From contig CAADGV010000024.1 of the NCBI GenBank assembly GCA_900696645.1, positions 1 to 64,000 of the forward strand: DNA of 64,000 nt. The letters run 5' to 3'. The notes under the pieces are model-generated. The model was not told the origin of the DNA, did not search any database, and saw only the letters and a program-made list of their open reading frames with translations. Positions 26,571 through 28,523 of this stretch are shown piece after piece (position 1 is the stretch's first letter; every line of letters starts with the position of its first letter). The translations under genes and the position numbers were made by a program. Origin of the DNA: an uncultured Chlorobiota bacterium. Lineage in GTDB: Bacteria > Bacteroidota > Ignavibacteria > UBA10030 > UBA6906.

Positions 26571-27314
26571 TTGCCAACCACAAGCTGTTACCTGATTTCG
26601 TTTAATATAATAGGAGGGTGTGTTACGGCTCCCGGGAAAACAAGGAATAGCGCCGCCTCCAACAGAACCATTGTCAATGGGCTGAAAAATGGCCGACGGG
26701 AAGCGTGTGCCCGGCTTGCGGATGCGTTTCAGAACAGACTTCTCTATGAGGCTGTGAACGTTTTCGGTCTGAATGCACAAGATTCCGAGGAGTTGGTCAG
26801 CGATGTGTTGGTTTCTGTTGTAACTAAAATCCACTCATTCGAATTCAAGAGGCATGATTCCGATTTCAGCGGGTGGGTGATCCGGATTTTCCGGAACAGA
26901 GTGAGGGATTATGTGCGGCAGCGTGCGGCAGCGGAGGAGAGTTTCGTTGAGTTTATTGATGACCCGCTCACGAAGGAGGATGCGTATTCGCCACAGGAGA
27001 GGGAATTGGCCAACTACATCCTCCACCAATATGAGCAGGCAAACAGGGAAGCCGATGAGGTTGGCGGCGGGCCTGTTTCCGCGAAGCTTGTCGCGATAGC
27101 TGATGTGCTCGACCGACTGGAATCATGGGAGCGGGTTTTGCTTCGGTGCAGGGCACTTGATGTTGCATACGAAGAAATTGCCGGATATACGAGAAAACCC
27201 GTGTCACATTTGAAAGTCTACCACGGCAGGGTAAAGAAGAAATTTATCAAACTCCTTGCGGAGTACTATCCCGAATTGGAACATCATGAAGAACGACAAG
27301 AACGACAAGATTGA
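26571..27314 (+). CDS. Sigma-70 family (ECF-like) RNA polymerase sigma factor
   Basis: Up to 247 aa. Region 2 is visible (LKNGRREACARLADAFQNRLLYEAV, SEELVSDVLVSVVTKIHSF, FSGWVIRIFRNRVRDYVRQ). Region 4 is LDRLESWERVLLRCRALDVAYEEIAGYTRKPVSHLKVYHGRVKKKFIKLL. The start is unclear. The only standard in-frame start is TTG 26571, upstream of the putative promoter element. A good Shine-Dalgarno (AGGAGGG, 26612-26618) is followed in frame by GTT, not GTG; a GTG at 26620 is in another frame. The true N-terminus probably lies near 26620-26670. The next gene overlaps it by 29 nt, so they are translationally coupled. It is probably controlled together with the HTH and peptidase genes behind it. Confidence 0.8.
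   Translation: MPTTSCYLISFNIIGGCVTAPGKTRNSAASNRTIVNGLKNGRREACARLADAFQNRLLYEAVNVFGLNAQDSEELVSDVLVSVVTKIHSFEFKRHDSDFSGWVIRIFRNRVRDYVRQRAAAEESFVEFIDDPLTKEDAYSPQERELANYILHQYEQANREADEVGGGPVSAKLVAIADVLDRLESWERVLLRCRALDVAYEEIAGYTRKPVSHLKVYHGRVKKKFIKLLAEYYPELEHHEERQERQD
26586..26611 (+). promoter_or_regulatory. Conserved element A: putative promoter/operator of the sigma locus
   Basis: TGTTACCTGATTTCGTTTA followed by TATAAT at 26606-26611. Eighteen of its first 19 bases recur at 28439 in front of the PUR-domain gene, with the adjacent TA-rich block at the same distance. It is likely a shared promoter or operator. Confidence 0.55.
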
Positions 27315-27903
27315 CCGTCTTATTCAGTTGGCGTGGCTTGAGGGCTGGATAACGACTCGCGGAGCATACGAGAAAGCCGTTGTCAACCGCAACGTCACGT
27401 CAACCGCGTCTCCGGGGGCTCGTGCGGCCCTCATCAGCCGGCTTGAGAGGGCACTTGCAGCAACACCGAAACCTGTTTCGCTTACTATCGGAACAATGCT
27501 GCAGAGCTTGCGAGCAGAACAGTCGCTCAAATCCGCTGAAATCTTTAGTCGAATCGGGTTATCCCTGAATGTCTATCGATTGATGGAGCATGACGCAATC
27601 TCGCCGCTCAAGATTCCTGTTGATGCTTGGACACGGTTGATGAGACTCTTTGACCTGTCGGTTGATGAGTTGGAACGAATAATCCGGAGGACTCATCAGC
27701 TTGTCTTCTTTCGTCCATCTGTGAAGCAGGTTCTGGCGCGGTATAAATTCGGTAAGCGCAAAAGCAGAAAGTCCCAATCGCTCGAAGAGGGTCTCAGCGA
27801 AATGTTCGCCAAGGCAAACCTTGAAATTCCGCCGGAGGAAAATGAGAAGCTGAGCAACCTGCTGGCGGCAATCAGAGAGCAAGATAAAGAATCTCGTAAG
27901 TAA
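27286..27903 (+). CDS. HTH (XRE-like) regulator coupled to the sigma factor
   Basis: 205 aa from the ATG at 27286, inside the 3' end of the sigma gene. Residues ~66-130 look like a Cro/C1-type HTH (SLTIGTMLQSLRAEQSLKSAEIFSRIGLSLNVYRLMEHDAISPLKIPVDAWTRLMRLFDLSVDELERII), followed by a basic linker (FGKRKSRKSQ) and a C-terminal helical part. There is no transmembrane segment. Its position between a sigma factor and an ImmA/IrrE-like peptidase suggests that it represses the locus or binds the sigma factor, and is itself the peptidase substrate, as in ImmR-ImmA or DdrO-PprI pairs. That role is inferred from context. Confidence 0.7.
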   Translation: MKNDKNDKIDRLIQLAWLEGWITTRGAYEKAVVNRNVTSTASPGARAALISRLERALAATPKPVSLTIGTMLQSLRAEQSLKSAEIFSRIGLSLNVYRLMEHDAISPLKIPVDAWTRLMRLFDLSVDELERIIRRTHQLVFFRPSVKQVLARYKFGKRKSRKSQSLEEGLSEMFAKANLEIPPEENEKLSNLLAAIREQDKESRK

Positions 27904-27927
27904 CTGTAATTTAACACCTTACGGCAC

Positions 27928-28404
27928 ATGTCCCCTCCTTCATTATCCGGAACGAGCGCCGACGCAGCACAGGCGTTGCTTTCAACGTTCGCCCCCGATC
28001 CACATCCTCCGATTGATGTCGAGCGACTTGCGACCTTGCTCGGATTTCAGGTTGTCGAGATTCAGTCGGCAGGGGATGAACTTTCCGGTCTCGTCAGTCC
28101 GAGGCATAAGATTATCGGTGTGAATGCCAACCATCATCCCCGCCGACAGCGCTTCACTCTTGCTCACGAACTCGGGCATATAATCCTCAACCATCCTCCC
28201 GAAGGCCGTTGCTCGGCTCGCGAGATAGCGTTGTTCAACCGCGAGGCAGATGCATTCGCGTCGGAGCTTCTTGTTCCAACCCAACTCCTCAGGCAACTTG
28301 CCGGTACTCGAACCTACTCACCGTCAGTTCTTTCACGTCTCTTTGATGTGAGCGAAGAGGCGATGATTCTCAGACTCAAGATATTCGTGGGGCGTCGGAG
28401 TTAG
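27928..28404 (+). CDS. ImmA/IrrE-family metallo-endopeptidase
   Basis: 158 aa. It carries the zinc motif HELGH in RFTLAHELGHIILNH (His80, Glu81, His84) and the downstream NREADAFASELLVP block (Glu106 as third ligand), both diagnostic for ImmA/IrrE (M78) peptidases. The family cleaves XRE-type repressors in mobile elements and in the Deinococcus radiation response. It starts 24 nt after the HTH gene, forming a three-gene unit with the sigma factor. It is cytoplasmic, with no signal peptide. Confidence 0.85.
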   Translation: MSPPSLSGTSADAAQALLSTFAPDPHPPIDVERLATLLGFQVVEIQSAGDELSGLVSPRHKIIGVNANHHPRRQRFTLAHELGHIILNHPPEGRCSAREIALFNREADAFASELLVPTQLLRQLAGTRTYSPSVLSRLFDVSEEAMILRLKIFVGRRS

Positions 28405-28438: not shown

Positions 28439-28463
28439 TGTTACCTGTTTTCGTTTATATGTA
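28439..28463 (+). promoter_or_regulatory. Conserved element B: putative promoter/operator of the PUR-domain gene
   Basis: TGTTACCTGTTTTCGTTTA followed by the TA-rich TATGTAG. It differs from element A (26586) by one base in 19. It lies 85 nt upstream of the PUR-domain gene, leaving a leader of about 55 nt with an AAC-repeat run. Confidence 0.55.
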
Positions 28464-28523
28464 GTAGAGGGCCGAAAGCCAATCTCAAACAAAACAACAA
28501 CAACAACTGCTTGGAGGTATGTC

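Follow-up and report, generated by a model that had tools for sequence, protein, structure and literature searches.

The locus described here looks like a previously undescribed switch of the DNA-damage type, whose targets would include gene-shuffling enzymes. Within the window (the whole stretch of DNA analysed, 64,000 nucleotides) it comprises four genes, encoding in this order a sigma factor, a helix-turn-helix (HTH) protein, an M78 peptidase and a PUR-domain protein, with a promoter-like motif before the first and the last of them (Table 1). A preliminary description of this DNA had reported the first three, and their order and spacings are exactly as it gave them, with the HTH gene overlapping the sigma gene by 29 nt (from the HTH ATG at 27286 to the sigma stop at 27314) and a gap of 24 nt (27904–27927) before the peptidase gene. 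What it reported is confirmed, but the unit runs on into the PUR gene. Together with the repetition of the promoter motif and a recombination and repair regulon, this additional gene is the main content of the finding, and all three were missed in that description. The four-gene unit, the motif, the genes behind the motif and their co-occurrence with the sigma factor are supported by several independent computations. Substitution rates between this genome (G000) and one of the same genus (G001) also indicate that all four genes are under purifying selection, with dN/dS values of 0.14 for the sigma gene, 0.13 for the HTH gene, 0.14 for the M78 gene and 0.02 for the PUR gene.

Table 1. Features of the four-gene unit (positions in the window).
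Feature	Position	Strand	Remarks
Promoter-like motif 1, TGTTACCTGATTTCGTTTAATATAATAGGAGG	26586..26617	+	Before the sigma gene; genome search, alignment, PWM score 42.4
ECF-type sigma factor	26622..27314	+	Conserved from ~26649; start approximate, open frame reaches TTG at 26571
XRE-fold HTH protein	27286..27903	+	Conserved helical N-terminus, XRE domain at about residues 66–135, helical C-terminus; proposed anti-sigma factor or repressor and peptidase substrate
M78 (ImmA/IrrE/CapP-type) zinc metallopeptidase	27928..28404	+	Peptidase domain only, C-terminal sensor domain undetected
Promoter-like motif 2, TGTTACCTGTTTTCGTTTATATGTAGTAGAGG	28439..28470	+	Before the PUR gene; genome search, alignment, PWM
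PUR-domain (DUF3276) single-strand nucleic-acid-binding-type protein, 74 aa	28524..28748	+	Profile and structure matches

The promoter-like motif spans 32 bp, with the consensus TGTTACCT-N2-TTTCGTT-N8-TAGRGG. The motif, GTTACCTGNTTTCGTTTA, is found exactly twice in the window, before the sigma gene and before the PUR gene, where 0.13 matches would be expected even with 3 mismatches allowed, and only four motif copies exist in the whole 4.2-Mb genome. Of 100 genomes, 18 contained matches to the pattern TGTTACCYNNNTTCGTT, with 49 sites in all, compared to 5 for the reversed control pattern; the sites in G073, G080 and G014:C334 look like chance and were rejected as regulon members. The aligned sites are also conserved at positions outside the search pattern (T10, C18, T19, TA at 25–26 and a G-rich run at 27–31), and upstream of the motif conservation is limited to a preference at position -1. 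The G-run is kept with the start codon either 34 or 80 nt away, and therefore does not serve only as a ribosome-binding site. The -35/-10 spacing differs from that of a textbook ECF promoter, and an Rfam search gave no match. Having such a motif at hand makes the regulon directly testable.

Homologues of the sigma factor (E < 1e-40) were found in 12 of 100 relatives, in a search also run with a profile across the order, and 84,980 species genomes yielded 10 strong matches, all of them MAGs labelled Ignavibacteria, Ignavibacteriales or Bacteroidetes. The HTH gene follows the sigma gene in nine loci, and the M78 gene comes next in eight of them, from eight species, the contig of the ninth ending after the HTH gene; the neighbourhood recorded in the preliminary description is thus conserved, and, as was also stated there, we found no account of this layout in the literature (open-access papers). 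Sigma and HTH proteins are co-inherited (Mantel r 0.92). A simpler arrangement was seen in three genomes (G012, G025, and G095), where sigma is directly followed by PUR, no HTH homologue was found elsewhere in the genome, and the motif is retained in spite of the lack of HTH protein and peptidase. Overall, the motif is present in all 12 sigma-positive relatives versus 6 of the 88 sigma-negative ones (Fisher p 1.8e-11), and two of these six have modules cut by the assembly, the contig beginning inside the M78 gene in G083 and at the motif in G009. Regulon-like sites with no detected sigma factor occur in G066 and G089, whose assemblies are incomplete, that of G066 having no recA either, and the last two of the six are G073 and G080, with their apparent chance sites. 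The HTH protein was discarded as reader of the motif owing to its absence from the three genomes that retain it, and PUR because it is found without sigma factor or motif in many genomes. Since the motif persists without HTH protein and peptidase, and distribution excludes HTH and PUR, there is a strong case for the sigma factor as its likely reader.

The sigma protein matches Sigma70_r2 in Pfam (E 1.8e-9) and TIGR02937 in NCBIfam (E 3e-12), and its AlphaFold model contains sigma2 and sigma4 domains, with ECF sigma factors as structural matches (SigW 5wuq, E 2.8e-4). Regions 2 and 4 are present and the other sigma domains absent, as in the ECF group, and a motif common to its own promoter and to the targets, as in autoregulated ECF factors, is found here as a computed co-occurrence, recognition being putative. 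The TTG at 26571 given earlier as its start is incompatible with the motif at 26586 driving the gene. From the motif to the first conserved residue (window 26586–26661), the sigma frame contains no ATG, GTG or TTG, and the position homologous to other sigma starts, 26622, reads GTT, in G001 too.

The reading that we prefer, and that we judge somewhat probable, is that of a stress switch acting through a sigma factor on DNA repair and recombination, and consisting of restraint by the HTH protein, cleavage by the peptidase and release of the sigma factor. While the cell is at rest, the ECF sigma factor would be kept inactive by the XRE-fold HTH protein; upon ssDNA or a similar damage signal, the M78 peptidase would cleave the HTH protein, and the free sigma factor would then read promoters of the TGTTACCT-N2-TTTCGTT type. 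Its own operon would be among the targets, giving positive feedback and also new HTH protein and peptidase, together with PUR and, depending on the species, unlinked genes such as IntI, other tyrosine recombinases, recA, ssb, cinA, IS200-type transposases, and nucleases. The motif points strongly to a circuit in which the sigma factor reads its own promoter. We have moderate confidence that the HTH protein restrains the sigma factor, that the peptidase cleaves the HTH protein, as the behaviour of the M78 and XRE families would suggest, and that the switch responds to DNA damage or ssDNA, and its mechanism is plausible. The preliminary description had already imagined a switch in which proteolysis of the HTH protein frees or derepresses the sigma factor, and this is now partly supported. 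Known M78/XRE switches operate by derepression, and known protease-released ECF sigma factors mostly answer envelope stress; if our reading is true, both kinds of system would be united in a sigma factor gated by a cytoplasmic M78 peptidase. In the CASP-sigma/Csx30/Csx29 system of type III-E CRISPR, an ECF-like sigma factor is likewise freed by proteolysis of a soluble inhibitor and its motifs lie before its own locus and DNA-processing genes, although protease, inhibitor and trigger (Csx29, Csx30, and guide-matched RNA) are unrelated to those considered here and CRISPR parts were not noted at our locus.

For the HTH protein, the DNA-binding type of fold presumed in the preliminary description was borne out by AlphaFold, which predicts an XRE domain at residues 66–135 with pLDDT ~90, the Pfam match to HTH_31 being sub-threshold (E 0.0055). 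Its closest structural matches are the DNA-binding domains of CapH (Z 8.2), DdrO (Z 7.2) and ImmR (Z 6.8), values of Z < 8 not being decisive for such small domains, together with those of SinR and P22 c2, and the best Foldseek match was DdrO, with an E value (0.46) that is non-significant alone. No anti-sigma domain was matched in Pfam or NCBIfam. The helical segment at the N-terminus is conserved among homologues (D10, L12, E19, G20, T24, G26, Y28, and E29) and could be the sigma-binding part. This resemblance to repressors, together with a peptidase from the family that cleaves them, also fits a different explanation, in which the HTH protein would be a repressor of the DdrO, CapH or ImmR kind blocking the sigma and PUR promoters (or an internal one), the sigma gene being just one of those derepressed on its cleavage. 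We regard this as unlikely, given that the motif is the sole conserved element upstream of the sigma gene, the 30 bp above it being free of conserved palindromes, that genomes lacking the HTH protein keep the motif unaltered, and that overlapping genes are the usual arrangement of sigma/anti-sigma pairs.

The peptidase matches PF06114 (E 5.1e-23), and the HExxH motif and downstream Glu (H80, E81, H84, and E106) are invariant in eight homologues, as befits a member of M78. It is closest to IrrE and CapP, and its best PADLOC match is capP (E 3.9e-22). Both PprI and CapP cleave their XRE partners when activated by ssDNA (PMC10904395, PMC13373217), which in PprI requires a C-terminal GAF domain (PMC10904395). 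No GAF domain was found by Pfam C-terminal in our peptidase, of 158 aa and composed only of the peptidase domain. Because of this, its trigger could differ from that of PprI, or the sensor could be another protein, such as the HTH N-terminus or PUR, the co-regulated PUR protein being a candidate. The PprI (IrrE)-DdrO response of Deinococcus likewise pairs an M78 peptidase with an XRE-fold protein, has DNA repair genes among its targets and works independently of LexA, but DdrO represses its target promoters directly and without any sigma factor, and PprI has the GAF domain that is lacking here. Adjacent HTH and M78 genes are also a feature of CapH + CapP (CBASS and other immune operons), and are found here together with a peptidase whose best PADLOC match is capP and an HTH protein whose best structural match is the N-terminal domain of CapH. 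However, CapH represses the neighbouring operon, whereas our locus includes a sigma factor, and its promoter motif occurs genome-wide. The HTH protein was unmatched in PADLOC, and so is not recognised as CapH by sequence.

The PUR protein matches the solved structures 3n8b (E 2.7e-8) and 3nm7 (E 1.2e-7), which are Borrelia PUR proteins. In related genomes without sigma, HTH or M78 genes, PUR still adjoins thioredoxin and RmuC, and the sigma cassette is therefore the variable part. The window itself contains PUR, thioredoxin, Bax-inhibitor-like membrane protein and RmuC-like genes between 28500 and 31822, an order kept in relatives. In G006 (L102), a tandem pair of PUR genes stands behind a single motif, distant from the sigma locus.

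The other two motif copies of the genome precede an IntI integron integrase (C38) and a XerA/IntI-like tyrosine recombinase (C20). The former scores 432.7 bits against TIGR02249, for which the curated cut-off is 265, as expected of an integron integrase, and four more loci, with weaker TIGR02249 matches, have no motif. Both recombinase sites (L035 4363–5324, L036 3723–4755) lie close to where their contigs end, as would follow from an assembly broken by repeated cassettes or insertion elements, and contig C38 ends ~230 bp past the motif, on the side where an attC array would be expected. Apart from sigma and PUR, the genes downstream of the motif are tyrosine recombinases (five genomes), IS200-type Y1 transposases, GIY-YIG nucleases, GxxExxY proteins and DUF2851, as well as ssb in G096. 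The cinA-thpR-recA operon was reached in several ways, with the motif before cinA (G090), before thpR (G006) or inside thpR ~380–490 nt before recA (G046, G089, and G009). The in-thpR sites of G046/G089 and G009 fall in non-homologous alignment columns, both encoding LPxxVSYI, residues that are missing from other ThpR proteins; coding constraint was thus rejected as their cause, and it is the DNA sequence, not the protein, that is kept. With a PWM built without the recA-operon sites, 4 of 13 recA upstream regions from regulon genomes score 22–36, and none of 29 from sigma-negative genomes exceeds 7.9 (p 0.006). A weak form of the motif lies 371 nt before recA in G025 and G095 (scores 3.8 and 7.7, respectively), and recA of the window's own genome has no motif upstream.

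A second alternative concerns the stress involved. ECF sigma factors mostly serve stresses other than DNA damage, many of the targets belong to mobile elements (IntI, tyrosine recombinases, and IS200-type transposases), and a dispersed repeat in G083 carries the motif core, all of which would suit a module sensing, for instance, oxidative or envelope stress, with a promoter captured by mobile elements and recA and ssb as incidental stress targets. We find this improbable, as the recA-operon sites arose independently at several positions, ssb and PUR are also targets, and a response to ssDNA is known for the nearest characterised peptidases. Still less credible, to the point that we give it hardly any weight, is that the HTH and M78 genes, as a pair resembling toxin-antitoxin systems or derived from a prophage, follow the sigma gene by chance, for although such pairs are widespread in mobile elements and one in Brucella has reportedly been termed a toxin-antitoxin system, here the HTH gene overlaps the sigma gene, shares its promoter and is co-inherited with it in nine species, and a phage or mobile origin of the module was rejected as no viral relatives of the sigma factor, nor copies of the motif in IMG/VR, were found.

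Going back to the sigma-based switch, we would venture, as a tentative extension that we do not yet favour, that it might be a LexA-independent, sigma-driven counterpart of SOS, in which a soluble anti-sigma factor with the XRE fold would be destroyed by an ssDNA-responsive M78 peptidase, and sigma, once released, would activate recA, ssb, PUR, the integron integrase and transposases, coupling damage to gene shuffling. As in the LexA/SOS control of integron integrases, the integrase would share its regulator with recA (in our case, with the recA of relatives), but control would be positive, through a dedicated sigma factor, and canonical LexA is absent from this genome, the search for full-length LexA giving only an S24-domain match below the cut-off. 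If true, an integron integrase under a dedicated sigma factor that serves recA elsewhere would mean that evolution has linked damage to cassette shuffling on more than one occasion, and outside LexA. G006 is the only one of the 12 sigma-positive genomes with a match above the LexA cut-off. A loss of LexA specific to sigma genomes was rejected because most relatives also have no canonical LexA, and its absence is background, not proof. An XRE-S24 protein of the window's genome (L248 516–1178) is a possible LexA substitute, and matches to S24 alone, of comparable size, are found repeatedly in the order.

Seven sites of G083 were left out of the regulon count, as they belong to, or look like, a dispersed repeat. 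In this genome (L181–L188), an intergenic repeat of ~50 bp joins the motif core to the double palindrome TGTTACCTCATTTCGTTATAACCTTCCGAAGGTTAAGCCTTCCGAAGGTTC. A doubtful site was found in G066 (L097), ~1.4 kb upstream of dprA and within an open frame, which may reflect either chance or a competence link. One of the repeat copies of G083, among the sites left out, lies upstream of the uvrB operon (L080).
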